DNA of 64,000 nucleotides, from positions 1 through 64,000 of the IMG/VR virus record IMGVR_UViG_3300044835_000075. One strand, given 5' to 3'. Source of the stretch: a virus. A model generated the notes under the pieces. It worked only from the letters and a program-made list of their open reading frames with translations. It was not told the DNA's origin and did no database searches. Below are positions 2,381-53,153 of the stretch, in pieces. The position numbers and the translations under genes are program-made. The first letter of the stretch is position 1; each line of letters starts with the position of its first letter.

Positions 2381-4507
2381 CTATGCCACCACCTGTGCAC
2401 TCACCGTGCCCGCGCCGACGCCGAGCAGCTCGAACGTCGTCCCGGCCGCCAGCACGATCGCGCCCCCGGCCACTCCGATCGCCACCCCCGCCGGAATCAG
2501 CACCGTAAGCACCACGGCCGCGTCCGACGGAATCGCCAGCCCCAGCACCGGCGTCCCCGGCATCGAGATCGACTGACCGGGCAGCGCCGCCAGCGGTGCG
2601 GTCAACGCGCGGTAGGCGATGATCGGCTGCTTGAGCGTCACCAGCGACGCCACCGGCGGCAGTCCATACCCATCCGGGGTAGGGGTAAGGGTCTCGCCCA
2701 TCGAGCGAGCCGCCGACTTCGCCACGGCCGCCGTGAGCATGTCGAGCGTCCTGCCGGGAGCGCCGGAGTCGGTGCGCGCGGACTCGGCCATCTCGTTCAT
2801 CCTGCGGGCCGCGTCGCCCGGCTTGCGGAACAGCAGTCCGCACCGGCAGTTTTTTGTAGGTATACTGTTCGCTAAGAACATCCCCGCCGTCGTCTGGAGC
2901 GTGTACACGTGGCCCCTAAACGCCTTCCTCTCGATCTTGACCACGCGGTCAAGCTCTACAACTCCGGCCAGCCTCTCCGTGAGGTCGCCTCTCATTTCGG
3001 CATGAGCCAAACCACCCTTTTCCTGAGATTTCGTGAAGCCGAAGTCCCTATGCGCATCGGATCGCAGAAGATCCTGCCCCTTCGCGTCTCGATTGATGCC
3101 GAGGAAGTCGCCACTCGTTACCGGAACGGCGAGAGCGAGAAGGCTCTCAGCGAAGCGCTCGGGGTCGACCGGTCCACCATCCGAACCCGCCTTGAGCGCA
3201 GCGGCATACAGCCACGCGGGCGCTCGGAATCCTTGCTTTTGCGTTGGTCCCGGCTCGATGTCGCCGAACGTGAGGCACTCGTTGTCGCTGCCCACATCGC
3301 CGGTCGCGGACGAATCGCCAGCACCGAAGAACTGACCCGCCGGGCTCAGTCCCGCGCCTCGCTCGACTGCTTCACCTCGCCCTGGGAAGTCGTTCTTGCT
3401 GACCTGCTCGCCGACCGAGGCGTGACGGCCGATCCGCAACGCGCTGTCCACCACTACAATGTCGACCTGGCCTGCTGGCCGGTCGCCGTGGAAATTCACC
3501 GCGACCCCGGGCATCCCCTGAACCGGCGCGCGCGTCGCCAGCGCATCGTGGACCTGCTCGATCGTGGCTGGCTTCCCCTCTACGTCTGGCTCAACCCGCG
3601 CACCAGCGCCGTGACCAACGCGTGTGCCGATCACGTAGTCGAACTCATTCAGCTCGCCCAACGTGACCCAGCCGCGTTCGGTGAGTACCGGGTGATTCGG
3701 GGTACCGGTGAGGCTGCGTCCCTGCGCAGTGCGAAGGGTCACGACCTGTCCGACATACGGCGCACGAAATGAACCTTCGACGTCGGGCCCTGCAACCTCC
3801 GTCTCCGGCACAAAGCAGTTCGCGACCTCGCCCCACGACGCGGGTAGATCCGCCGGATCGCCGGGGTGCTTGAGCTGGAACTTGCCGACCGTGAACGTCT
3901 CCCCCACCGGCCGCACCTGCCCGTCGGCGACCACGTGGGTGTGCCGGACGCGGTCGTCCCGCTTTGAGAGCCATTGAGTGTGGGTCACGCCGAGCCGCAC
4001 GGCGGTGCGCAGGGCGGCGTCGTTGACCAGCGCGTTGCCGAGTGTCCGCCCGGCCATCAGAAGCCAATTGCCCCCCCTGTCGTGCGCGGCCTTGATGTTG
4101 TCGAGCACCTCGTCGAGGTCTTCGGCGGTCTTGTCGGAGTCGAGCACGGCCGCCCGGACGACCTTGGCGTGCGCGTCGGCGACCCCGAGGATCCGGCTGA
4201 TGACGTCCTCGACGGCTGCGGTGAGGTCTCCCATGTCGAACGCGGTGAGGTCGGAGCCGCCACCCAGGTTGGACGATGTCTCTTTCGCCGCCTCGGTGGC
4301 GATCCGGAGCACGACGGGGCGGATCTCCTCGCGCAACTCCGCTTCGAGTTTGTCCGGCACCACGTAGGCCGGGTCCAGCGCTTTGAGTTCGCGGGTGAGT
4401 ACGGCCGTGCCGCCGCCCTTGGTCTCGACCTGGTCCCACCACCGGGTGTGCTTGCGCGCCTTGGGGCCCTTGACGCGGGCGGTGACGACGGCCAGCGAGC
4501 GCTGCAA
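2381..4507 (-). CDS. MuF-like minor head protein interrupted by an intein
   Basis: 708-codon frame. Residues 1-230 and 554-708 are the exteins. The first ends KHPGDPADLPASWGEVAN and the second begins CRCGLLF, together giving the NCRCG end of the SPP1 gp7 / Mu gpF head-morphogenesis domain (THTQW, RDDRVRHTH upstream). Residues 231-553 are an intein. The C-terminal extein ends in a hydrophobic Gly/Ala/Val stretch. Role by family: minor capsid protein made next to portal. Start is uncertain: TTG 4507 has no RBS, and protein-like sequence (RLVNAVDARARRAEDALTAV) continues upstream in frame into the portal end with no ATG/GTG/TTG before a stop at 4727-4729. Confidence 0.82.
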   Translation of the reverse strand: MQRSLAVVTARVKGPKARKHTRWWDQVETKGGGTAVLTRELKALDPAYVVPDKLEAELREEIRPVVLRIATEAAKETSSNLGGGSDLTAFDMGDLTAAVEDVISRILGVADAHAKVVRAAVLDSDKTAEDLDEVLDNIKAAHDRGGNWLLMAGRTLGNALVNDAALRTAVRLGVTHTQWLSKRDDRVRHTHVVADGQVRPVGETFTVGKFQLKHPGDPADLPASWGEVANCFVPETEVAGPDVEGSFRAPYVGQVVTLRTAQGRSLTGTPNHPVLTERGWVTLGELNEFDYVIGTRVGHGAGARVEPDVEGKPATIEQVHDALATRAPVQGMPGVAVNFHGDRPAGQVDIVVVDSALRIGRHASVGEQVSKNDFPGRGEAVERGAGLSPAGQFFGAGDSSATGDVGSDNECLTFGDIEPGPTQKQGFRAPAWLYAAALKAGSDGGPVDPERFAESLLALAVPVTSGDFLGINRDAKGQDLLRSDAHRDFGFTKSQEKGGLAHAEMRGDLTERLAGVVELDRVVKIERKAFRGHVYTLQTTAGMFLANSIPTKNCRCGLLFRKPGDAARRMNEMAESARTDSGAPGRTLDMLTAAVAKSAARSMGETLTPTPDGYGLPPVASLVTLKQPIIAYRALTAPLAALPGQSISMPGTPVLGLAIPSDAAVVLTVLIPAGVAIGVAGGAIVLAAGTTFELLGVGAGTVSAQVVA
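2849..3817 (-). other. intein (323 residues) within the MuF gene
   Basis: Begins at Cys1 (codon 3817-3815), has a block-B-like GTPNHPVL (Thr39, His42), a block-F-like VYTLQTTAGMFLANSIPTKN and terminal Asn323 (2851-2849) followed by Cys+1. The usual penultimate His is Lys. No LAGLIDADG motif is seen in this reading frame; the middle ~230 residues are the in-register complement of the endonuclease gene on the other strand. The C-terminal block uses AT-rich codons unlike the exteins, consistent with transfer. Splicing should restore the MuF protein; the Lys substitution leaves activity to be tested. Confidence 0.82.
2909..3772 (+). CDS. antisense Vsr-like homing endonuclease inside the intein
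   Basis: 287 residues from GTG 2909 with GGAG 9 nt upstream; lies wholly inside the intein on the opposite strand. Residues ~8-45 and ~55-105 look like two successive helix-turn-helix segments (PLREVASHFGMSQTTLFLRF and ALSEALGVDRSTIRTRLE). The C-terminal half has PWEVVLADLLADRGV, then NVDLA, PVAVEIHRDPGHP and GWLPLYVWL, the E..D..E.H order of Vsr/EDxHD-type nucleases. Known relatives act as homing endonucleases near inteins and introns. The last ~27 codons run antisense to intein block B and may be dispensable. The assignment rests on motifs read by eye. Confidence 0.75.
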   Translation: MAPKRLPLDLDHAVKLYNSGQPLREVASHFGMSQTTLFLRFREAEVPMRIGSQKILPLRVSIDAEEVATRYRNGESEKALSEALGVDRSTIRTRLERSGIQPRGRSESLLLRWSRLDVAEREALVVAAHIAGRGRIASTEELTRRAQSRASLDCFTSPWEVVLADLLADRGVTADPQRAVHHYNVDLACWPVAVEIHRDPGHPLNRRARRQRIVDLLDRGWLPLYVWLNPRTSAVTNACADHVVELIQLAQRDPAAFGEYRVIRGTGEAASLRSAKGHDLSDIRRTK

Positions 4508-4655: not shown

Positions 4656-6239
4656 TCATCGCCAGATCGAGGCGTCGGCGCTGCCGACTTCAGCTCGCGC
4701 GCGGGACTGCCTATCCTCCAGCTCGATCATCTCTTCGAGGCTGCGCTGCTCCAGCGCGCCGGGCCGGGAGTCGACCAAGCGCAGCGAGCGGGCGTTGTTG
4801 TCGTTCTCTGCGGCCTGGGCGCCCATCATGCTGCCCTGCTGGGCACCGGCCTCGGCCTCGGCGGCCGGGTCCGGGGGCGGCGGGGTGCCGAGCATTTGCA
4901 GCTTGTTGACTTCGGCGAGGTCGTCGGCCGCACCGGCTGGGACTTTGCCACCGGGGAGCATGACGACGCGGGACCACGGCTGATCGAAGGGCGGTTTGCC
5001 TGCGATGACGCGGTATTCGTCGAGGGTGCAGAGTCCGGCGGCGAAGTCGGCGGCGGCTTGGGTGATGTCACTGCGCTTGTGTCGGTTGAGGACCCATACG
5101 TCGGAGACGTCGTGCCGGAGGAACAGGGTGTCGTCGTAGTCTCCGGTGAGGATGTCCATTTGGTCGTCGAGCATTTCGAGCAGCGGGAGCATCGTCTGCG
5201 CCCAGAAGATCTCGTACTCGGCGTCGGCGTTGTCGAACGTCCGGCCGGACGCGTCGCCCAGGACGGACTCGGGCACGCCGAAGACCATGGCGATCTCGGT
5301 CCGCATCCGGTCCATCGTGTCGGCCCACTGGGTGTCCCGTGGGTTGCCGGACGTGTCGACATACTCCATCGCGTCGGCCTGGATGGCGGTGGTGCGGCCG
5401 ATACCGGCGGGGCCGCCGTTCATGCGGGTTTCGAGGATGTCGATCACGTCGGGCGAGACGTTGCCCTTGACGGCGAGGATGCCGCCAGGACGGCCGTCCT
5501 GATCCATGAAGCGGCGGTTGTACATCCGGGCGGCGCGGTCGAGATCGGCCGACATTCCAGCGGCCTGGGCGGGGCTCATGCCCCGGAACATCAACGTCGG
5601 GTGCGGCGAGCGGACCCACAGGACCGAGTTCGGCTGGTCGGCGAAGTCGGCCTTGGGGTCGTAGCGCGGGAGGTAGTTGTACGGGCCGGACTGGTCGTTC
5701 GTAGTGATGCGGAACGAGCCGAGCGGGTCGACGTACTTCTGCCCGGTCCTGCTCAGGACAGTGGTGGGGATGATCTCCACCATGTCCGGGTCGATCAAGT
5801 TCATCATCGCCACGCGGCCGCTGCGGCTGCGCACGATCTCGATGTAGACCCCGCGTGAGGACAGGAGCCATTGTGCGATGAGGCGGTACTGGAAGACCTT
5901 CGCGCGCTCCCAGCGGTTGGCCTGGATGTTCATCAGGCGCAGCAGGCCGGTGGGGTCGGCTTCGGGCAGGATCGGTTCGCCGTCCGGGGAGCCGTCGCGG
6001 ATGACCACGGTGCGGGCGATGACGGCGCAGGCGATGACGTGGACGGCCCGGTAGATCCACGGGTTGACCTCGAAGCCCTCTTTGACCGCGCGGTCGGTGT
6101 TCCAGGCCTGGTTGTAGGGCTGACCTGGGACGACGTACTGCCGGAAGAACGACCGGGCACGGCCGGACAGGCCCTTGGTCTCGATCGCCTTGCCGGTGAT
6201 CGCGCGTCGTAGAGCCGGGGCGAGCGTGCGCCGAGCCAT
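4656..6239 (-). CDS. phage portal protein
   Basis: 527 residues from ATG 6239, preceded by GAGGGGTGAGG (in-frame GTG at 6245 is the alternative). Features of the HK97-type portal family: YRAVHVIACAVIARTVV near the N-terminus, SRGVYIEIVRSRSGRV in the middle, and MVFGVPESVLGDASG then NADAEYEIFWAQTMLPLLEML towards the end, a hallmark of phage_portal proteins. Forms the dodecameric head vertex through which terminase packages DNA. First visible gene of the minus head operon; its stop overlaps the unclear start region of MuF. Confidence 0.92.
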   Translation of the reverse strand: MARRTLAPALRRAITGKAIETKGLSGRARSFFRQYVVPGQPYNQAWNTDRAVKEGFEVNPWIYRAVHVIACAVIARTVVIRDGSPDGEPILPEADPTGLLRLMNIQANRWERAKVFQYRLIAQWLLSSRGVYIEIVRSRSGRVAMMNLIDPDMVEIIPTTVLSRTGQKYVDPLGSFRITTNDQSGPYNYLPRYDPKADFADQPNSVLWVRSPHPTLMFRGMSPAQAAGMSADLDRAARMYNRRFMDQDGRPGGILAVKGNVSPDVIDILETRMNGGPAGIGRTTAIQADAMEYVDTSGNPRDTQWADTMDRMRTEIAMVFGVPESVLGDASGRTFDNADAEYEIFWAQTMLPLLEMLDDQMDILTGDYDDTLFLRHDVSDVWVLNRHKRSDITQAAADFAAGLCTLDEYRVIAGKPPFDQPWSRVVMLPGGKVPAGAADDLAEVNKLQMLGTPPPPDPAAEAEAGAQQGSMMGAQAAENDNNARSLRLVDSRPGALEQRSLEEMIELEDRQSRARAEVGSADASIWR

Positions 6240-6399: not shown

Positions 6400-6549
6400 T
6401 CAGCGGGGTGCGACGACCGTCACGGACTGGACATCCGTCGCGGTGAAGGGCAGGTCTTCGGCGCGACGTGCCTCGTCTTTTGTCATCTTCACGGGTCGAG
6501 ACTTCCCGTCGGTGGTGCGGACGGTGACTGTGTGATCCCTGTTGCCCAT
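6400..6549 (-). CDS. small protein, 49 residues, unknown
   Basis: ATG 6549 after GAAAGGCG about 10 nt upstream and a cassette promoter. Starts MGNRDHTVTVRTTDG and contains VKMTKDEARRAEDLPFTAT; basic, no membrane segment. It reads away from the transfer operon and has its own promoter. No family recognised. Confidence 0.6.
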   Translation of the reverse strand: MGNRDHTVTVRTTDGKSRPVKMTKDEARRAEDLPFTATDVQSVTVVAPR

Positions 6550-6598
6550 CGGGTGGTTCGCCTTTCGTCGGAGCTGCCTGGCGCGGCTCGATGGGAAA

Positions 6599-6628
6599 AA
6601 ACTAGCCGACTTGGTAATGGCTTGTCAA
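6599..6628 (-). promoter_or_regulatory. promoter cassette for the 49-residue gene
   Basis: TTGACA, 18 bp beginning AGCC, TAGTTT. Confidence 0.65.
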
Positions 6629-6689
6629 CCCCTGATCTTGACGGGTTTGGTATCCGACTGGACTCCGGTACCCCTACCCCGCTAGGGTA

Positions 6690-6703
6690 TGCGTAAATAC
6701 GCA
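6690..6703 (+). promoter_or_regulatory. palindrome, probable operator of the transfer operon
   Basis: TGCGTA AA TACGCA, perfect 6-bp arms, 17 bp before the first ATG of the plus-strand operon. A second imperfect repeat TACCC..GGGTA lies directly upstream (6670-6690). The position suits a repressor site for the transfer genes; the repressor itself is not identified. Confidence 0.5.
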
Positions 6704-6720
6704 CAGCTGAGGACCGGTGA

Positions 6721-6999
6721 ATGAACGACACAGCGCTCGGCACGGAGATCACGGCCACGGCCGCGCGGATCCGCGCCCTGCTCGACCTCGACGCCAGCGG
6801 CACACCCGGGGATCTCCTCCCCGAGCTGGCCATCCTGGACGAGGCCGAACGGAACCTGCGTGTCGTCCGCGACTCAGTCCTTGTCCACGTCCGCAGACGC
6901 GGAAGCTCGTGGAACACGATCGAAGCCAGCACCGATGTACCCGCCACCACCTGGCGCGGCCGCTACGTACGACACACAGAGGAGACCAGCCGACCATGA
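6721..6999 (+). CDS. small HTH-like protein heading the transfer operon
   Basis: 92 residues, ATG 6721 with a weak GAGG upstream. Helical N-terminal half (ELAILDEAERNLRVVRDSVL) followed by SSWNTIEASTDVPATTWRGRY, which resembles a helix-turn-helix; similar short proteins precede SpdB/TraB genes on actinobacterial plasmids. Stop overlaps the next start (ATGA), so it is co-translated with the membrane protein. Possibly a regulator of transfer; this is inference from position. Confidence 0.65.
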   Translation: MNDTALGTEITATAARIRALLDLDASGTPGDLLPELAILDEAERNLRVVRDSVLVHVRRRGSSWNTIEASTDVPATTWRGRYVRHTEETSRP

Positions 7000-7892
7000 T
7001 CGCCCAGACGTCGCGCTCCCGACGTTGGAAGGCCCCCAAGACACCGAAGCCGCCCAAGACCCCGCGCGTCCGGCGCAAGCCGATCGCCGCGCTCAAGGGC
7101 AAGCTGACCCCCAAGCGGGCGACGCCGGTGCCGGTGGACCTCCGCAAGCGGGAACTGGTCGCGGTCACCGCGCTGGCCGCGCTGGCAGTGCTCTCCGTCG
7201 CCGCCATCGGGTTCGTAATTAGCTACTCCCACATGCACGATTGGGCCTTGGCGAACCACGAACCGGACTGGCGCGCGAAGCTCTTCCCCCTGTCCGTCGA
7301 TGGCGCGATCCTCGCCGCCACCCTCGTGCTCTACGCCGACTCACGCGCCGGTCGCAAGGCCGACAAGCTGGCGTACTTCATCACCGCGCTGGGCATCGCC
7401 TGGTCGGTCGGGGCGAACATCGGGCACACGTGGGTGAGCGCCGGTGCGGCCATGCTGATCGCGGGCTGGCCGCCGGTGGCGATGGCGCTCTCGGTCGAGC
7501 AGCTGCTCAAGTTCCTGCGCCGGTGGCGCGGGCAGGCCGACGCCGAGGTGCGCAAGGCCGCGAAGCAGCGGACCGACCGGCCCGCCGCCGAGCCGGACAC
7601 CGTCGAGGTCGCGCCGAAGCCGGTTCCCGCGCCGCGCCCGAAGCCGTCGGCACCGAAGCAGGCTGAGGTGATGGCGCCGCACGTGGTGCCGATGGAGGTG
7701 CCGAGCTGGGTGCCCACGATCCTCAAGGCTGGCGACGCGTGCCAGGCCTATCTCACCCAGGTCAATCCGGACGCCGAGGCGCCGGAAGTCGACCGCGAGG
7801 TCGGCAAGTACATCCGCATGTCGGATGGGTACGCCCGCCGCCAGGTGCGGGTATTCAACGAGGCCCGGCAGGCCGCCGGGCAGGGAGGGTAG
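6996..7892 (+). CDS. DUF2637/SpdB-like plasmid-spread membrane protein
   Basis: 298 residues. Pro/Lys-rich basic N-terminus (~50 residues), then four membrane segments: LVAVTALAALAVLSVAAIGF, LSVDGAILAATLVLY, YFITALGIAWSVGANIGH and AAMLIAGWPPVAMALSVEQL. This four-helix pattern with VDGAI and GWPPVA is typical of DUF2637, found in spread proteins and AICE/plasmid transfer loci. The C-terminal half is soluble, Pro/Ala-rich, and ends with a helical domain containing RMSDGYARRQVRVFNEA, probably a DNA-binding HTH. Coupled to the upstream HTH gene and followed by the TraB operon. Confidence 0.8.
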   Translation: MIAQTSRSRRWKAPKTPKPPKTPRVRRKPIAALKGKLTPKRATPVPVDLRKRELVAVTALAALAVLSVAAIGFVISYSHMHDWALANHEPDWRAKLFPLSVDGAILAATLVLYADSRAGRKADKLAYFITALGIAWSVGANIGHTWVSAGAAMLIAGWPPVAMALSVEQLLKFLRRWRGQADAEVRKAAKQRTDRPAAEPDTVEVAPKPVPAPRPKPSAPKQAEVMAPHVVPMEVPSWVPTILKAGDACQAYLTQVNPDAEAPEVDREVGKYIRMSDGYARRQVRVFNEARQAAGQGG

Positions 7893-7894
7893 TC

Positions 7895-8884
7895 ATGGCG
7901 AAGCGCAGGAAGACGCGGGCGAAGCCTCGCGGGAAGGCGAGGGCGCGGACGAAAGCCCCGTCTCGCCGGTCCGTTGACAGGGCGATCCGCAAAGTCACCG
8001 ACGACGGCGGAAGTACCCGCAAGCGCAAGCGGAACGGCAAGGCCCGCAAGCCCATGGGTGACCGCCTGTGGTGGCGAATCGCCAAGGGAACCTCGAAGGG
8101 CACCGTTCGCGGCATCGCGGTCGGCACCCCGAAGGCTGTCAACGGCGTCAAGGCGGCACACGCGAAGTTCAAGGACGGCCGGACGTTCGCAACGGCGTTC
8201 GACGACGAGTACGTGCCCGATTCCGGGGAGATCCCGCCCCGCAAGTTCTCCTGGAAGTCGACTTTCACGTGCTGCGGGCGCCGGTACAAGACGGTCGAGC
8301 ACCTCAATCGGCACCACCTGGCCGAGCACGACGGCGAGTCTCCCGAGGTCGCGGCGCGGGCCCTGCCGACGCTGCATATCTCGAAGACCGCGAAGACCCT
8401 GGACAAGCGGACGGTGACCCCTGTGGCGAACACGCCGACGGGTCGGCACCGGCCGAGCAGTTCGAAACCGAAGGCAACGTCGGTGGCCGACCTGGTCGCC
8501 AAGCACCGCGCCAAGATCACCGAGATCGGAAAGAAGGCAGTCATGGATAACGAGTCCGCGCGGCTGGTTCATAACGGGTTCCTGTCCCTGGACGCCGAGC
8601 GTCCCGGGCCGCTGAGTCACATCGAGGCGACGGCGCTGGGCTTCGAGCAGGCGTTCGCCGTCGGCTCGGAGTCGATCGCGAACTACCGGCGCAAGCTGAT
8701 TCAGGCCGGTTTCGACCCGGCTCACCTTCAGCACTACACGCGTGCCCAGGCGGACCTGGAGAGCGCGGCGACGCACATGTCGTCGGCCATCGCGACCATC
8801 AAGGACGAGATGCGCAGCGACATCGCGGCGGCGAAGGCGCGGCTCAACGGCGAGAAGCCGAACGACAAAACCCTCGCGAACTGA
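7895..8884 (+). CDS. basic C2H2-finger protein of the transfer operon
   Basis: 329 residues, ATG 7895 with GGGAGGG RBS. The first ~60 residues are extremely basic (KRRKTRAKPRGKARARTK). A single C2H2-like finger lies near residues 124-145: FTCCGRRYKTVEHLNRHHLA. The C-terminal half is helical with a coiled-coil-like end. Nothing enzymatic is visible. Its place between SpdB and TraB suggests a DNA- or membrane-associated accessory factor for transfer. Confidence 0.7.
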   Translation: MAKRRKTRAKPRGKARARTKAPSRRSVDRAIRKVTDDGGSTRKRKRNGKARKPMGDRLWWRIAKGTSKGTVRGIAVGTPKAVNGVKAAHAKFKDGRTFATAFDDEYVPDSGEIPPRKFSWKSTFTCCGRRYKTVEHLNRHHLAEHDGESPEVAARALPTLHISKTAKTLDKRTVTPVANTPTGRHRPSSSKPKATSVADLVAKHRAKITEIGKKAVMDNESARLVHNGFLSLDAERPGPLSHIEATALGFEQAFAVGSESIANYRRKLIQAGFDPAHLQHYTRAQADLESAATHMSSAIATIKDEMRSDIAAAKARLNGEKPNDKTLAN

Positions 8885-8914
8885 CCAGTAACAAACTCTG
8901 AAAGGAAGATCAAC

Positions 8915-10969
8915 ATGTCCAAGCCCGAGATCAACTTGTGGGAGGTGCTCTACCGCAAGCGGCTCGGCCTCGGCCCCTTCTACGTCGGGGTCGGTGCCGC
9001 CGCGCTTGCGGGGCTCTCCTCCCTGCTCGGCGACGTCGAAACGATCATCGCCGTCGTGGCGGTAGCTCTCGCGCTCGGCGCTTGGGCACACACCCGCGTG
9101 AAGGACGGCCTGCGCCGTGGCTACGCCTTCACCGTCATCGGCTCGTCGGCGCTCTGGATCATCGTCGCCCACCTGTACTCGACCAGCCTGCTCTCCGCCC
9201 TGATCGTGGCGAACCTGTCCGCCACGCTCGTGCTGGGCATCGGCTGGTGGACCTCGCACCGCCAGCGTGCCCAGGTCCGCATGGCCGAGGCGCTCAAGGA
9301 CTGGCCGGAGCTGGTCAAGCGGATCAACTACGACAAGATCCCCGCGCCGGGTGTCACCATCTCCCCCATCGGCTACGGCGGCAAGCTCAAGTGGGCGCCG
9401 GGCGAGTACGACGTCGCCGACATCATCCGGGACAAGGGCAAGTTCGAGAACATGCTGGGCGCCGACCACGGCCAGATGCGGATGGAGCGCGACGGCAAGT
9501 CGACGAACTCGGTGAAGTTCCAGGTCATCACCAACGACCCGCACTCGCTGGCGCAGGACTGGGCGCCGCCGACGTCGGTCGTCCAGGCGACGGACCCGCT
9601 GGCGATCGGTCCGCGTGAGGACGGGATCGTCGCGACGATCCGCCGATTCGAGCGCAACTCCGGTGTCCGGCACGCCCTGATCGCGGGAGCCACGGAGTCG
9701 GGCAAGTCGAGCCTGGTCAACCTCATGGTCGCCACGGACGTCTGCTCGGATGAGGTGTTCCAGATCGGGTTCGACTTCAAGCAGGTCGAGTTGACCCCGT
9801 GGGAGCGGGCGATGGGGTTCGTGATCACCAAGGTCCCCAGCGCTGTGGAGATGGTGCGCGGGTTCGCCGCGCCGGGCGGCTTGCTGGAGACGCGGGGCGA
9901 CATCCTCGCGGAGCGTGGCCGCCGGGAAGGCAAGGGTGTCCGGATATGGGACACGAAGAAAGACGGCCCGATCATTTCCATTGTCGTCGACGAGGCGAAG
10001 GATTTGCTTGGAACGACTGATTCCAAGACGGTTGATGCCTTTGCCTTGATCGCGACAAAGGGTCGCGCGCTGGGTGTCCGTTTCGTTATCGCTACGCAAT
10101 TCCCGACGCTTGAGGCTATCGGTTCTTCGCAGATCCGCCAGCAGGTCCGGCACCGGTTCTGCTTCCGGATGCAGGACTCGGCCGGGGAGAGCTTCGTGAT
10201 GCCGGGGCACCGCGTGCGGGCCGAGGCGATCGACGCGGAGCGCAAGGGCACGTGCTACATGCTCGACGGCGACCGGCTGGAGTCGATGCCGATCCGGGTC
10301 TACTGGATCGACGACGACATGGTCGCCGCCGTCGTCGCGGCCCGCGCGGGCCGGACGCCGGAACTCGACGCGCGCAGCGCCGAGGCGATCGAGCTGTACT
10401 TCCCGGATTTCGCGAACCGCATGGTGCGCATCCCGGAGCCGACCGGGACGAGTACCGGGACTGACGGCGGGACCGGGACCGGGACTAGTCCCGGGACTGA
10501 TGACGGCGGGACCGGGACTAGTCCCGGGACGACCGGGACCGACGTCGGGACTGTCCCGGCCGGTGATGAGGAGGGCGACGCGATGGCCGGGACTGGCGAC
10601 GAGTGGGTCGACTTGAACAAGGGCCCGCAGGTGGAGATCGAGGACGTCATGGCGTCCCGGGACTCGCACCTGACCGAAGAGGAGCGGGAGCGGCTGGAGC
10701 GGGACCGGCGGGTGGCGTTGGCCGAGGTCCCGGGACAGCGGTTGAACGAGGAGCAGGCCCGGGACGCGTTGATCCGGGCGCTGGAGGCGGCGGGACCGGA
10801 GGGCGCGAAGGCGAAGGATCTTCAGGTTGCGGCTGACCGCTCGTCGAGCTGGTTCTACAAGGTCGCGGCGCAGATGGCCGAGGACGGAATCGTGAAGCGG
10901 ACGACGCGAGGCAAGTGGATGATCCTCAAGCCGAAACTGTCGTTGGTGACTACCGCACCGAAGGGGTAG
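8915..10969 (+). CDS. FtsK/SpoIIIE-type conjugative DNA translocase (TraB-like)
   Basis: 684 residues, ATG 8915 with AAAGGAAG RBS. N-terminal ~120 residues hold three to four membrane segments. The motor has Walker A GATESGKSS (~residue 258) and Walker B ISIVVDEAKDL (~352). A Gly/Thr/Pro linker (~510-548) is written in DNA as repeated ACCGGGAC. A C-terminal winged helix (~617-675, AKDLQVAADRSSSWFYKVAA) matches the FtsK gamma/TraB DNA-reading domain. Streptomyces TraB proteins move double-stranded plasmid DNA between mycelial cells with no relaxase. Family is certain; a conjugative rather than packaging role is inferred from the SpdB neighbour. Confidence 0.88.
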   Translation: MSKPEINLWEVLYRKRLGLGPFYVGVGAAALAGLSSLLGDVETIIAVVAVALALGAWAHTRVKDGLRRGYAFTVIGSSALWIIVAHLYSTSLLSALIVANLSATLVLGIGWWTSHRQRAQVRMAEALKDWPELVKRINYDKIPAPGVTISPIGYGGKLKWAPGEYDVADIIRDKGKFENMLGADHGQMRMERDGKSTNSVKFQVITNDPHSLAQDWAPPTSVVQATDPLAIGPREDGIVATIRRFERNSGVRHALIAGATESGKSSLVNLMVATDVCSDEVFQIGFDFKQVELTPWERAMGFVITKVPSAVEMVRGFAAPGGLLETRGDILAERGRREGKGVRIWDTKKDGPIISIVVDEAKDLLGTTDSKTVDAFALIATKGRALGVRFVIATQFPTLEAIGSSQIRQQVRHRFCFRMQDSAGESFVMPGHRVRAEAIDAERKGTCYMLDGDRLESMPIRVYWIDDDMVAAVVAARAGRTPELDARSAEAIELYFPDFANRMVRIPEPTGTSTGTDGGTGTGTSPGTDDGGTGTSPGTTGTDVGTVPAGDEEGDAMAGTGDEWVDLNKGPQVEIEDVMASRDSHLTEEERERLERDRRVALAEVPGQRLNEEQARDALIRALEAAGPEGAKAKDLQVAADRSSSWFYKVAAQMAEDGIVKRTTRGKWMILKPKLSLVTTAPKG
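10442..10539 (+). repeat. ACCGGGAC octamer cluster within traB-like gene
   Basis: Six copies of ACCGGGAC at 10442, 10454, 10472, 10478, 10511 and 10532, interleaved with ACTAGT-centred CCGGGACTAGTCCCGG palindromes. They encode the Gly-Thr linker. The reverse complement GTCCCGGT resembles the 8-bp TraB recognition sequence of Streptomyces plasmid pSVH1 (GACCCGGA, from memory). Confidence 0.6.
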
Positions 10970-10987
10970 TCGGAGAAGGTTCTACCG

Positions 10988-11020
10988 CGCGGGGTGAGCG
11001 AGTTCGATGCTCACCCCGCG
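10988..11020 (+). terminator. perfect 12-bp hairpin after traB-like gene
   Basis: CGCGGGGTGAGC / GCTCACCCCGCG with a 9-nt loop, 18 bp after the stop; lacks a long U tract. Confidence 0.65.
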
Positions 11021-11022
11021 TA

Positions 11023-11168
11023 ATCGTCCAGTGGACAAACTCGATCGTCCACCGGCCTCGAAATGTCCGTTTTCCATCGTCCAGTGGACAGTGGAAAGTG
11101 ATCGTTTACCTGTAATAACTCCCCCAGCCCCCTCGCTCGCGGGACAGTGGACGATCTGATCGTCCACT
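11023..11168. repeat. iteron-like GTCCAGTGGAC repeats
   Basis: ATCGTCCAGTGGAC at 11023-11036 and 11076-11089, ATCGTCCACC at 11044-11053, and a perfect 11-bp-arm palindrome at 11146-11168 (AGTGGACGATC-T-GATCGTCCACT). The spacing and palindromic core suit a replication/partition iteron array or a multi-site operator. The region is noncoding. Confidence 0.55.
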
Positions 11169-11169
11169 C

Positions 11170-11550
11170 TCACGCTCCGTGAGGCATTGCGCCCGGCTGT
11201 TCACTGTGAGCGCCGGGCGTTTCCGTGCCCGGGAGCGGACGTCTCGGGTGCCGCGCCCGCCACGCGACGCCACGAACGACGTACGCGGCGTGGCTGTCGG
11301 AAAATCCATGCTTCGGCTCGGCGTCGCTCGGTTCGGCGGGCGGCATCTCGGGAAGTCGGCCGGGGTAGCTCGCGGCGGGGTACCCGGCGTCGCGGAGCAA
11401 CTCGTCGAGCACGTCGTAGAGCGGGTCTCCGGCGTCAACCCAGAGGTGACGGTCAGTGGTCCCGCCGTTGGCGATGTAGCGGATCCGTCCCGCCTCGCCC
11501 CGGCGACGCCAGGCGTTGCGGATGACGGGTGTCCCGGTCAGTGCGGGCAT
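11170..11550 (-). CDS. unknown 126-residue protein of plasmid-like block
   Basis: ATG 11550 with AGGAAGG RBS. Contains RIRYIANGGTTDRHLWVDAG and YDVLDELLRDAGYPAASYPG; soluble, with a basic, probably disordered C-terminus. It is translated after the 11685-12044 membrane gene across a 134-bp spacer packed with octamer repeats. No family recognised; possibly an accessory spread or replication protein. Confidence 0.6.
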   Translation of the reverse strand: MPALTGTPVIRNAWRRRGEAGRIRYIANGGTTDRHLWVDAGDPLYDVLDELLRDAGYPAASYPGRLPEMPPAEPSDAEPKHGFSDSHAAYVVRGVAWRARHPRRPLPGTETPGAHSEQPGAMPHGA

Positions 11551-11840
11551 CGGGTGGTCCTTCCTGTCCCGGTGGTCCCGGGACTTCTCTGAGCTGGGAT
11601 TCCATGATGTCCCGGGACTGGTCCCGGTGGTTGTCCCGGTCTGGTCCCGGTGTCCCGGGACCGAGTCCCGGGACTTGTCCCGGTCTAGTCCCGGGTGGAG
11701 TCCCGGGACTGCGGGGGCGGGGTGAAGGTCCCGGGTGCGTCGGGGATGAACGCACCGGGATCGGGGTTGTCGGTGTCGATCTCGATGTCCCGGTCGTCCC
11801 GGTAGGACGTCCCGGTCCCGGTCCCGGGACTAGTCCCGGT
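11531..11840 (-). repeat. dense GTCCCGG(T/G) octamer cluster, candidate clt/TRS
   Basis: About 18 copies on the plus strand of GTCCCGGT or GTCCCGGG, for example at 11566, 11575, 11609, 11621, 11633, 11644, 11652, 11665, 11677, 11688, 11700, 11787, 11796, 11809, 11815 and 11833. The densest part (11551-11684) is noncoding. Orientation is opposite to the cluster inside the TraB-like gene. Directly repeated 8-mers beside a traB gene are the known form of the Streptomyces clt locus. Confidence 0.6.
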
Positions 11841-12044
11841 ACTCGGCTCGTCGGTGGAGGAGGCGAGGAACCATCCCCAGAGGACGAGGGCGAGTCCGGC
11901 GAAGAGGCTGAGCGACCAGGGACCGAATACGACGATGAAGGTGGCGACGATGGCGAGGGAGCCGAGGGCGGCGAGGGCGATGCCGGTCAGTTCGATGCGG
12001 CGGCGGCGCGCTTCGATGGCCCGTCGGTGCTGGGGTTCGGTCAT
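11685..12044 (-). CDS. two-helix membrane protein with Gly-Thr tail (Spd-like)
   Basis: 119 residues from ATG 12044 (MTEPQHRRAIEARRRRI). Two membrane helices follow: LTGIALAALGSLAIVATFIV and LSLFAGLALVLWGWFLA. The tail GTSPGTGTGTS is encoded by the octamer repeats, as in the TraB-like protein. Small hydrophobic proteins beside traB are usually Spd spread proteins; that role is inferred. Confidence 0.62.
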   Translation of the reverse strand: MTEPQHRRAIEARRRRIELTGIALAALGSLAIVATFIVVFGPWSLSLFAGLALVLWGWFLASSTDEPSTGTSPGTGTGTSYRDDRDIEIDTDNPDPGAFIPDAPGTFTPPPQSRDSTRD

Positions 12045-12449: not shown

Positions 12450-13307
12450 ATGATGGGACACGACCACGCCCGGTCAGGAGTACCGGCCGCCTGCGTCGCC
12501 GTACTGGTGGCGCGCGCGTTCGGCGAGGATCTGTCGGTGTTCATGATCGCGCTCAGCATCGTGCTCACCTGCGGCGCCGCACTGCTGCCCGATCTCGACC
12601 ACCCGTCCGCCACGGCCGCCCACACGTTCGGCCCGATCACGCGCGGCATCGCCGAGGTGCTCAACGGGTTCGGCGAATGGCTGTACTACCGGACGCGGTC
12701 GAACGCGGACAAGCCGCACATCAAGGACGGGCACCGGACGTTCAGCCACACCGTCGTCTTCGCTCTCCTGGCGGGGGTTTTCGTGGCCCTGGCTTGCTCT
12801 CTCGGCGGCAAATGGGCGCTTCTGGTGACCCTGTTCATCCTGGCGTCGCTGGCCCTGCGCGGCGCGGCAGGGCACCACGGGCACGGCCGACGGCGGCACC
12901 GTCTTCTGCCGCGTCTTCCACGCGGCCCGATCGGCATTTCGTTCGCCGCCGCCGCACTGAGCGCGGCCGCGTACTTCCTCATGCCGACCACGGTCAACGG
13001 CGTGTTCATCGGCATCTGCGTCGCGGTCGGCTGCATCACGCACGACCTCGGGGACGCGTGCACCCTGTACGGCGATCCGCTGTTCTGGCCGCTCCCGATC
13101 AAGGGGCAGCGCTGGTACCTGGTCGGCACGCCGCGTGCTCTTCGGTTCCGCACCGGCAACGGGCCGGAGCACGTCGGCGAGCGGCGGTTCCGGGTGCTGC
13201 TCAACATCGTCACGGTGATCCTGCTCGTGACGCTGGCGCCGGGGTCGTGGACGTGGCTGTTCGAGGTGGGGCAGCGCGGTTGGTCGACGGTTGTGGCGTT
13301 GGTCTAG
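12450..13307 (+). CDS. YdjM-type (PF04307) membrane metal-dependent hydrolase
   Basis: 285 residues, ATG 12450 with GAGGAGGAACTC RBS. Signature motifs DLDHP (~residue 50) and HRTFSHT (~93-99) bind metal in the YdjM/DUF457 family. Membrane segments occupy most of the rest, e.g. VVFALLAGVFVALACSL and FAAAALSAAAYFLMPTT, with ITHDLGDA later. The family's biochemical role is poorly defined; phage copies are common. Ends at a bidirectional terminator facing 13417. Confidence 0.75.
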   Translation: MMGHDHARSGVPAACVAVLVARAFGEDLSVFMIALSIVLTCGAALLPDLDHPSATAAHTFGPITRGIAEVLNGFGEWLYYRTRSNADKPHIKDGHRTFSHTVVFALLAGVFVALACSLGGKWALLVTLFILASLALRGAAGHHGHGRRRHRLLPRLPRGPIGISFAAAALSAAAYFLMPTTVNGVFIGICVAVGCITHDLGDACTLYGDPLFWPLPIKGQRWYLVGTPRALRFRTGNGPEHVGERRFRVLLNIVTVILLVTLAPGSWTWLFEVGQRGWSTVVALV

Positions 13308-42026: not shown

Positions 42027-43526
42027 CTACGCAATCAGCCGGACCTCGGTTCCGGACTTGATCCCCAAGTTGGGCATCAACTCGACACCTGCCCACACGC
42101 TGGCGTCGAGCCGGTCGGGGCTCGTCTGCCCGGACCCCGGCACCCAGGCCTGCCATTGGTCTTCGAGGTGCTTGAGCGACCCGACGACGTGCGCCCGGTG
42201 CTGCTGCCACACGCCGCCGACCGGCTCGGCGCGGGTCCGCTTCCCAACGCTGGCGTGCACGTTCTTCAAGTGCGGGACCTTGTGCCCCTCGGCGCGCGCG
42301 ACCATCTGAGCCATCGTAAAAACGAGGTCTCCGCCCTGGTTTACCTCGGCGGTGATGCAGTCCGCCCCCCAGTCCTCGGCGGCGACCAGCGCGCGGCGCG
42401 CCCACGTCTCCGGCGTCGCCCGCAGCGAGCAGTCCTCAAGCCAGTAGATGTGTGCCGAGTTCGCCAGCGACTTCGGCGCGGTGTGCGGCGGCTCCCAGTC
42501 GATCGGCGCAGGCCCGATCCCGGCGACCATGATGCCGCACTCGTCTGAGTCCTCGGTCGAGGTGACGGCCGGGTCGACGGCGACGACGACACGCCAGAAA
42601 TCCGGCACCTGGGGCGCCAGCAGGCGCGTGTGCTCGATGATGTCGAGCGTGATCAGCGCGCCCGGGACCGCGCGCAGCAGCTCCCCGTCGAGTTCCTGGC
42701 GCCCGAGGGCGGTGCCTTCGAACTCCTCCTCGATCTCCTGCAACCACTCGGCCGAGAGGTTGGCCGCGTTGTCGCGGGTCCGGCCGCGCGTGAGGTGGGT
42801 GTTCGCGGCAAGGCCGCCGAGGATCGAGCCCCCGGCGAGCAGGAAGGCGTCGAGCAGCTTGACGAGAACCTTGTTGCCGCGCGTCGGCGTAGTGGTGATG
42901 ACGATGCGGGGGTCGCCGATTCGGGTGGCGAACTTGATGCCCTCGTTCCACACCTTGGGGTCGCGCCACGAGCCGACCTCGTCGCACCACACGCCGCGCA
43001 GGTTCCAGCCTCGGATGCGGTCGGGCGCGTCGGCGGAGCCGAGCACGATGCGCGACCCGTTCTTCAGGGTGATGACGTACTCGGACCGGTTGTAGTCGCG
43101 GATCTCGGAGTCCGGGCCGGTCTCGCCGCCGAGCGCGACGAGCAGGCCTGACGGGCCCTCGACGCAGATCTTCTTCGCGTCGCCGAGTGTGGGGGCGACG
43201 ACCGCGTAGTCGCCGACTTCGGTCAGCGCCCATTCGGCGACGACGTTGGCGCCGGTGAACGTCTTGCCCCATCCTCGACCGGCCATGATCAGCCAGTGCC
43301 GCCAGCGGCCGCACGGCGGGATCTGCTCGGGGCGGGCGGTCTTGCGCCAGGGCCGGGGGATGGGCGGCACGAGTTCGTGCAGCGCCATCTTCTGGATGCC
43401 TGCCCAGATCTCGTCTTCGAGGTCGTAGAGCAGGGGGTCGGCAAGGTCGACGTAGCCGGACAGCGTGACGGGGTCCATGCGGGGCGCATCGGCCCATAGC
43501 TGGGCGAGTTCGCTATCGGTGAGCAT
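42027..43526 (-). CDS. terL: terminase large subunit
   Basis: 499 residues from ATG 43526 (TGATG overlap with the upstream gene). Packaging ATPase: Walker A AGRGWGKT (82-89), Walker B GVWCDE with Glu183, motif III ITTTPTRG (~211-217). Nuclease: Asp318 (VAVDPAVTS), Glu394 (TAEVNQGG) and Asp474 (DRLDASVWAG). Length and motifs are normal, so it should be functional. It lies 36 kb from the portal gene in this window, an unusual separation. Confidence 0.95.
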   Translation of the reverse strand: MLTDSELAQLWADAPRMDPVTLSGYVDLADPLLYDLEDEIWAGIQKMALHELVPPIPRPWRKTARPEQIPPCGRWRHWLIMAGRGWGKTFTGANVVAEWALTEVGDYAVVAPTLGDAKKICVEGPSGLLVALGGETGPDSEIRDYNRSEYVITLKNGSRIVLGSADAPDRIRGWNLRGVWCDEVGSWRDPKVWNEGIKFATRIGDPRIVITTTPTRGNKVLVKLLDAFLLAGGSILGGLAANTHLTRGRTRDNAANLSAEWLQEIEEEFEGTALGRQELDGELLRAVPGALITLDIIEHTRLLAPQVPDFWRVVVAVDPAVTSTEDSDECGIMVAGIGPAPIDWEPPHTAPKSLANSAHIYWLEDCSLRATPETWARRALVAAEDWGADCITAEVNQGGDLVFTMAQMVARAEGHKVPHLKNVHASVGKRTRAEPVGGVWQQHRAHVVGSLKHLEDQWQAWVPGSGQTSPDRLDASVWAGVELMPNLGIKSGTEVRLIA

Positions 43527-52528: not shown

Positions 52529-52749
52529 TGGGCGCGCTCAACCGCCGCCACCGAACAGCCGACATCGACAAGATCACGTTGAGCGCGGAGACGCTACTGG
52601 TGCTGCCCGCCGTCGCCGACTTCCTCGACGAGACAGGCAAGGGGATGCGGCTCAAGGCTGAACGGGAAGGCCTCTCGCTGGCCGCCGACATCCTGCGCGC
52701 CGAGTTGCTCGGCCCCGCGCTCGGCCTGTCTGCCCCGGGCGCCGACTGA
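52528..52749 (+). CDS. unknown 73-residue protein
   Basis: TGATG overlaps both sides. ITLSAETLLVLPAVADFLDE and LSLAADILRAELLGPALGLS. Helical. Unknown. Confidence 0.64.
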   Translation: MGALNRRHRTADIDKITLSAETLLVLPAVADFLDETGKGMRLKAEREGLSLAADILRAELLGPALGLSAPGAD

Positions 52750-53153
52750 TGGCCGTGACGTTCGCCGCGTTCATGCTCGCGATGCTCACCGCCCACCAGC
52801 TCGGCGACCACTGGGTGCAGACCGACCACCAGGCCAACGGGAAGGGCGCCCGGGACTTCACCGGCGCCGTCCTGTGCGCGCGTCACGTCGGCACCTACAC
52901 GGCCACGACGGCCGTGTTCGGGGCGCTGGCGTGGTGGGTGCTCGACCTCGACATCACCGTCGTCGGATTCGTCGCCGGGCAGGCCGTGTCGGCGCTCACG
53001 CACTACTGGGCTGACCGGCGCTTCACGCTCAAGTGGCTTGCCCGCAAGACTCGGCACGGCGCGTACTACGACCGGGGCGGCGCATACCAGCTCGACCAGG
53101 CCTACCACTGGTCGTGGCTGTTCGTCGCGGCCCTGCTGACCGCTGCCCTGTGA
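52749..53153 (+). CDS. DUF3307-like membrane protein
   Basis: 134 residues. AHQLGDHWVQTDHQANGKG is the DUF3307 signature; membrane helices TTAVFGALAWWVLDLDI and VGFVAGQAVSALTHYWADRR follow. Function of the family is not established. Confidence 0.72.
   Translation: MAVTFAAFMLAMLTAHQLGDHWVQTDHQANGKGARDFTGAVLCARHVGTYTATTAVFGALAWWVLDLDITVVGFVAGQAVSALTHYWADRRFTLKWLARKTRHGAYYDRGGAYQLDQAYHWSWLFVAALLTAAL

Follow-up and report, generated by a model that had tools for sequence, protein, structure and literature searches.

A putative TraB-type DNA transfer module with a candidate loading site in a tailed-phage genome

The window analyzed here, 64,000 nucleotides in length, is the first 64 kb of the 107,374-bp virus record IMGVR_UViG_3300044835_000075 (G000), which is linear and incomplete. 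It carries a plus-strand module resembling the double-stranded DNA (dsDNA) transfer genes of actinobacterial conjugative elements, consisting of the genes for a DUF2637 membrane protein (6996-7892; Pfam 5e-17), a conserved protein (7895-8884) and a TraB-like dsDNA translocase of 684 aa (amino acids; 8915-10969). The module is flanked by a minus-strand portal gene and minus-strand small genes. An earlier reading of the same DNA, made from the letters alone (the sequence-only reading), had placed it between portal and accessory phage genes, and this position is borne out by the portal gene at its left border (4656-6239, minus strand; Pfam Phage_portal 2.8e-41) and a gene for a YdjM-like membrane hydrolase on its right flank (12450-13307, plus strand; Pfam YdjM 2.2e-20, phrog_20744 6.8e-32). 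The 3′ part of the translocase gene and the region behind it hold a CGGGAC/GTCCCG array (10444-11838), a candidate for the TraB loading site clt, which was absent from that reading.

The virion genes of the record include those for a portal, a head protease carrying a 2′-5′ RNA ligase domain, a MuF-type head protein, a terminase and a tail, and are accompanied by endolysin and replication genes. The terminase large subunit gene (42027-43478) is located 31 kb from the module, and no separate array accompanies it. Portal proteins with 37% identity occur in Streptomyces phage Gilgamesh and in a number of Streptomyces plasmids of 125-132 kb. The GC content is 65-71% over most of the window and even, codon use of the module is phage-like (z -0.1 for the DUF2637 gene and -1.1 for traB), and tetranucleotide use near the module deviates only over the repeat array (9-12 kb, z 2.6). 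Hence there was no sign of a chimeric junction, which the sequence-only reading had named as a reason to abandon its proposal. Judged from sequence, the transfer module is genuine and is housed in a genuine tailed phage, whose host we infer to be actinobacterial from its relatives and GC content alone.

The translocase combines two N-terminal transmembrane helices, predicted at residues 37-55 and 80-98 from hydropathy peaks, with an FtsK/HerA-type ATPase core and a winged-helix-like C-terminus. The Walker-type motifs GATESGKS and VVDEA are present in its alignment. Its earlier description as FtsK/TraB-like was supported by Pfam FtsK_SpoIIIE, which matched above the cut-off (1.9e-8), and by the NCBIfam model of plasmid TraB (NF041214; 2.2e-29), which aligned colinearly over residues 41-675 of 684 (model 36-636 of 639). 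Competing profiles were weaker (FtsK, 4e-8; EccC, 1e-9). The controls showed the reverse, as chromosomal FtsK and phage FtsK-like proteins favored the FtsK model and matched TraB in the core only. In a 35-row tree, the comparison proposed in the sequence-only reading, the translocase fell on the TraB side with weak support (49/72), and kinship with EccC was rejected (approximately unbiased [AU] test, p 0.037).

Of all hexamers in the 107-kb record, CGGGAC clusters most strongly, with a Poisson score of 49 compared with 5-7 in shuffled sequence. One third of its copies (50/150) are found within the 1.4 kb of the array, which also contains all ten GTCCCGGGAC palindromes of the record. Within the array lie the DNA for the linker that precedes the translocase C-terminus, a non-coding stretch and a portion of a small open reading frame (ORF) on the opposite strand. 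The translocase gene has 23 CGGGAC copies versus 5.5 in synonymous shuffles, none of 1000 of which reached as many, indicating that protein composition is not the cause of the excess. The ratio of CGGGAC to GTCCCG is 17:5 in the gene part and 6:19 in the second part (11531-11838). Between the two parts, directly 3′ of the translocase gene, lies the non-coding stretch (11018-11170), which contains five TCGTCCA words and CTGTAA...CCCAGCCCC and is partly conserved in another virus contig, G399. The shuffle and cluster tests measure enrichment at the DNA level, not binding. The association of the array with traB was first seen on this record and then checked on other elements.

Among 84,980 scanned genomes, the closest DUF2637 protein (48% identity over the aligned part) is encoded in a Kribbella catacumbae element (L030), directly upstream of a TraB-type gene. 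This element also holds a GntR regulator and Prim-Pol-like, Rep-like and tyrosine integrase genes, and by gene content it is an actinomycete integrative and conjugative element (AICE), in agreement with the earlier suggestion that the gene set is that of conjugative plasmids and AICEs. In L030, a DUF3307 gene precedes the DUF2637 gene; the DUF3307 membrane protein of our record (52749-53153, plus strand; Pfam 4.9e-6) is 51% identical to that of L030. L030 contains 26 of its 33 CGGGAC copies within 1.5 kb at traB, and this is its top hexamer and exceeds synonymous shuffles (0/1000). Four further AICEs (L149-L152) have DUF2637 ahead of TraB, their TraB proteins are 53-56% identical to that of L030, and their traB genes show CGGGAC excess with z values of 5.3, 5.4, 2.3 and 2.5. 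The excess is absent from the more distant AICE traB genes, pIJ101, Gilgamesh-type phage-plasmids, and chromosomal FtsK and EccC genes. In plasmid p7, the DUF2637 gene follows traB at a distance of two genes, after a small gene. Several actinobacterial elements and phages have DUF2637 but no TraB, and DUF2637 therefore is not a transfer marker by itself. A virus contig of 54% GC (IMGVR_UViG_3300022666_000342; L021 4477-9391) encodes a DnaB-like helicase, a DUF2637 protein and an FtsK/TraB-like ATPase within 7 kb, with no portal match and no CGGGAC; it may represent a further form of the module from outside the actinobacteria.

When viral and genome collections were scanned with the translocase or the portal as single query, no close relative was found, and the translocase alignment was too diverse for use as a search query. 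A DNA-word search for a GTCCCGGGAC pair within 30 bp retrieved 23 stretches of viral DNA, two of which carry the module (G399 and G400). Since both contigs were picked by the word, the adjoining module counts as independent evidence, whereas the arrays do not. The 18.9-kb contig G399 has the DUF2637, conserved protein, translocase, YdjM and DUF3307 genes and an array at the same place; its translocase is 32% identical over 688 aa, its conserved protein, at the equivalent place, 31-32% over about 100 aa, the YdjM-like homologue near the module 37% and the DUF3307 protein 39%. Behind traB of G399 (L212 about 6490-7000, minus strand), an HNH-like frame seems to end in a domain like the TraB C-terminus (RRRSWVYARLKDL...RRGRWSL compared with ARSWTYAKLTEM...KRGNWAL), as though an endonuclease had borrowed the array-reading domain.

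The 89.5-kb contig G400 carries DUF2637, a TraA-like gene and TraB (1.6e-89); its array overlaps the DUF2637 gene and extends upstream of it, at 0.8 kb from traB. It also encodes a terminase, a portal (5e-124), a major head protein (3e-116), a tape measure protein, an endolysin, ParA (5.8e-42) and a DUF3307 protein (38%). G400 is syntenic throughout with pS1D4-14.2 (NZ_CP041606, 98.8 kb) from the cultured Streptomyces sp. S1D4-14 (TraB 67%, capsid 80%, ParA 78%). Only this plasmid was found via protein similarity and scanned whole irrespective of the word. It carries portal, capsid, tape measure, terminase, ParA, ParB and integrase genes and a DUF3307 gene (36%), and its TraB homologue is annotated as 'hypothetical protein'. 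In this plasmid, CGAAAG forms the strongest cluster, at 0.6 kb from traB, so that a different word occupies the same place. The ParA genes of both G400 and pS1D4-14.2 are far from the arrays. Another plasmid, from Thermobispora bispora (NZ_CP039125, 145 kb), has portal, capsid, ParA, a TraB-like gene and a GntR regulator; in the 31 kb examined around the TraB-like gene, 72 of 89 CGGTAC copies cluster within 1.25 kb (L221 17820-19067), about 1 kb behind that gene, and the word is one base from CGGGAC. Thus the module recurs in G399 and G400 and a TraB module in pS1D4-14.2, which answers the call of the sequence-only reading for a synteny comparison. The GTCCCGGGAC pair was rejected as a general traB marker, since its copies in chromosomes of the same bacterial order lie mostly away from traB. 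One further virus with a word match, G401, was set aside, as it has 52% GC and only a tandem repeat without the module; nine GTCCCGGGAC palindromes, mostly at 22-bp spacing, lie at L214 11218-11460, with neither DUF2637 nor TraB.

In the TraB systems described so far, loading takes place at the cis site clt, whose short repeats (8 bp in pSVH1) are read by the C-terminal winged helix, and clt words vary between plasmids (PMC4170104, PMC3583192). The clt of pWTY27 comprises 16 bp at the end of the transfer gene traA and 159 bp alongside, with 7-bp repeats (PMC3583192). Our arrays match this published pattern in their position, the length of their words and the element-specific choice of word, so that loading at the array appears the most likely function. 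Taken together, it is fairly likely that a tailed phage here carries a dsDNA transfer module of the TraB type found in actinobacterial conjugative elements, provided with a clt-like loading site. From what is seen directly, namely the genes, the phage setting, the TraB homology, the conserved gene order and the equivalent position of the word arrays in several elements, we infer binding, pumping, cell-to-cell transfer and a plasmid state of this virus. The translocase would be anchored in the membrane through its N-terminal helices, and the CGGGAC words at and behind its own gene would be recognized by its winged-helix C-terminus or by the DUF2637 protein. A translocase hexamer would then load at the array and pump unprocessed double-stranded phage DNA via septum or tip contact into a neighbor cell, while the DUF2637 and conserved proteins may assist loading or spreading. 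For relatives with ParA and virion genes, plasmid persistence, contact transfer and virion transfer are all plausible.

Several observations weigh against this interpretation. The TraB match scores 102 bits compared with an NCBIfam equivalog cut-off of 800 bits, and the translocase is therefore a distant relative, which we name TraB-like, not TraB; the experimentally known pIJ101 Tra does not match NF041214 at all, indicating that the cut-off delimits a subfamily. Kinship with chromosomal FtsK was not rejected (AU p 0.134), and the translocase is only about 19% identical overall to the AICE TraB with which it shares the word. Matches of the GTCCCGGGAC pair in chromosomes are mostly unrelated to traB, and the array could serve another protein. 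Moreover, the ParA, ParB_N, tyrosine recombinase and serine recombinase families are absent from the incomplete 107-kb record.

The translocase might instead act inside the cell as an FtsK-like motor that helps to resolve, segregate or package phage DNA or carries it across host septa. FtsK-like genes are common in phages without a transfer module, such as mycobacteriophages like Thibault and Bacillus phages, where they group with chromosomal FtsK; the FtsK side of the tree was not rejected, and our record shows no plasmid maintenance genes. Nevertheless, the best profile of our translocase is plasmid TraB at near full length, unlike that of the Thibault and Bacillus phage proteins, its DUF2637 partner and its array are those of conjugative elements, as is the DUF3307 gene held in common with them, and the terminase is distant from the module and its array. 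We consider an intracellular motor unlikely.

Alternatively, the array may be a centromere, an origin or an operator that a protein other than the translocase reads, for instance DUF2637 or a partition protein, with a role in stability or spread rather than as clt. The array reader may be either the translocase or the DUF2637 protein. Although the C-termini of the G000, G399 and G400 translocases could be aligned, reading of the array by a winged helix is putative; the word is shared even though AICE and phage TraB differ strongly (about 19% overall, compared with 48% for DUF2637), the G400 array hugs the DUF2637 gene, and DUF2637 proteins may carry a C-terminal helix-turn-helix, as in p7. In pIJ101, a separate palindrome bound by SpdA2 affects stability only (PMC4170104). 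However, the arrays follow traB with differing words (CGGGAC, CGAAAG and CGGTAC), as expected of an element-specific clt, and are distant from the ParA genes of G400 and pS1D4-14.2, which makes a centromere, origin or operator distinctly improbable. An AICE or plasmid fragment joined to the phage by assembly error or recent useless insertion is scarcely credible: despite the genes in common with an AICE and the tetranucleotide deviation at 9-12 kb, this deviation stems from the array, the genes are phage-like in GC and codon use, the same module with YdjM and DUF3307 recurs at 32% identity in the independent contig G399, and a cultured strain harbors a phage-plasmid in which a TraB module is joined by a membrane partner.

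The sequence-only reading had also suggested a phage-plasmid. This holds for the relatives G400 and pS1D4-14.2, which combine ParA with virion genes, but the label is unproven for the present virus. Its record has the virion genes of a phage-plasmid (portal, head protease, terminase, tail and endolysin), whereas searches of the incomplete 107 kb for ParA and ParB_N were negative. Neither direct nor inverted end repeats were found in the 107-kb record. Both record ends interrupt minus-strand virion genes; such cut ends are compatible with, though not proof of, a circular or circularly permuted genome from which a capsid-tail piece is missing. With AICEs the record shares a TraB-type gene together with AICE partners, DUF2637 and DUF3307 as in L030, but an integrase was not detected, with no Phage_integrase or Resolvase match in 107 kb.

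These comparisons lead us to propose tentatively, with slightly less than even confidence, a class of actinobacterial phages and phage-plasmids that carry a full TraB module with a dense, element-specific array of a single short word, in and beside traB, as the loading site. The arrays would correspond to the clt sites of AICEs, so far undefined, the elements would spread both as virions and as naked dsDNA by contact, and the site would be readable from sequence. Literature searches yielded no paper in which TraB, DUF2637 and phages are connected, nor one on phage-plasmids with FtsK and conjugation. TraB transfer escapes the usual typing by relaxase and type IV secretion system, and pS1D4-14.2 is typed non-mobilizable, as is the Thermobispora plasmid. 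If phages carry TraB transfer, virion and contact transfer would be combined in one genome, and gene flow via actinobacterial phage-plasmids would be underestimated. With the arrays, a concrete candidate for the cis site can be read from the sequence.

The remaining features of the locus fared differently. The operator palindrome proposed in the sequence-only reading, TGCGTAAATACGCA (6690-6703), is present just 5′ of the module as the sole copy in 107 kb, and an operator role is possible; its identification with the pIJ101 sps site was rejected, as sps is CGTCACGTGACG. The ORF of 92 aa downstream (6721-6999, plus strand), which overlaps the DUF2637 gene by ATGA, had been taken for a helix-turn-helix protein, but lacks a significant family match (best phrog E 0.02) and has atypical codon use (z -2.8). 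The DUF2637 assignment of the next gene stands without its SpdB-like label: pIJ101 SpdB and the pSGL1 counterpart do not match DUF2637, and we therefore do not name the module protein SpdB. The conserved gene has a counterpart in G399, but its zinc finger is putative at best (zf-C2H2_4, E 0.65). The supposed Spd-like membrane protein (11685-12044) is encoded on the minus strand, with its 3′ part inside the array; it has one predicted transmembrane helix and no family match, and its membership in the module is not supported. Nor is a promoter family common to the module and the phage genes supported, as the TTGACA-type repeats at 6622 and 12410 point leftwards and would serve the minus-strand neighbors rather than the module on the plus strand. 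The TTGACA-type promoter-like word (TTGTCAAC or its complement) occurs in 25 copies in the record ahead of many genes, mostly oriented with transcription, for example at window positions 6622, 13773, 14677, 15029, 15462, 20946 and 53522. Elsewhere, the MuF-type head morphogenesis gene (2381-4507, minus strand) is split by an intein (Intein_splicing 5e-6), and the strongest tetranucleotide outlier of the record (65000-70000; z 3.3-3.7) has few called genes.

The TraB proteins of pSVH1, pIJ101 and other Streptomyces plasmids resemble our translocase in the FtsK-like core, the membrane N-terminus and the profile match, but these plasmids are small, lack virion genes, and have other repeat words in far fewer copies. 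Kribbella-type AICEs likewise have DUF2637 directly before TraB, CGGGAC in traB and, in L030, DUF3307; they differ in possessing integrase, Prim-Pol and Rep and in lacking virion genes, and their TraB is only remotely similar. Gilgamesh and its 125-132 kb plasmid relatives share the portal and an FtsK-like translocase in a phage, with ParA/ParB in Gilgamesh, but no DUF2637 gene lies beside the translocase. In the Gilgamesh group, which has the FtsK-like gene without DUF2637, an array at the translocase was not found. The strongest word cluster of Gilgamesh, CGCGCC, lies 63 kb from the FtsK-like gene; 53 of its 471 copies fall within 1.5 kb beside an AAA-ATPase gene (MN234216.1 about 71985-73454).

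The idea of a conjugating plasmid-phage is already precedented by pZL12/phage ZL12 (GQ919031), reported as a Streptomyces element with plasmid replication, conjugation and phage formation (title cited in PMC4487206); its tra locus is cited in PMC3583192. pZL12 has ParA, ParB, an FtsK/SpoIIIE-like gene and virion genes, but this FtsK-like gene is only distantly similar to our translocase, and pZL12 gave no DUF2637 match. Its best word cluster scores 7.7, close to the level of shuffled sequence, so that a strong array is lacking. As a nearer parallel, pS1D4-14.2 carries a TraB homologue preceded by a small TraA-like gene and a membrane protein gene, a word array in the equivalent position, and virion, ParA, ParB and DUF3307 genes. 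It differs in its word, its tyrosine integrase and the G400 lineage of its TraB and capsid, and its membrane protein is not matched by the DUF2637 profile. As it resides in a cultured Streptomyces strain, pS1D4-14.2 makes the question of TraB-mediated phage transfer testable.

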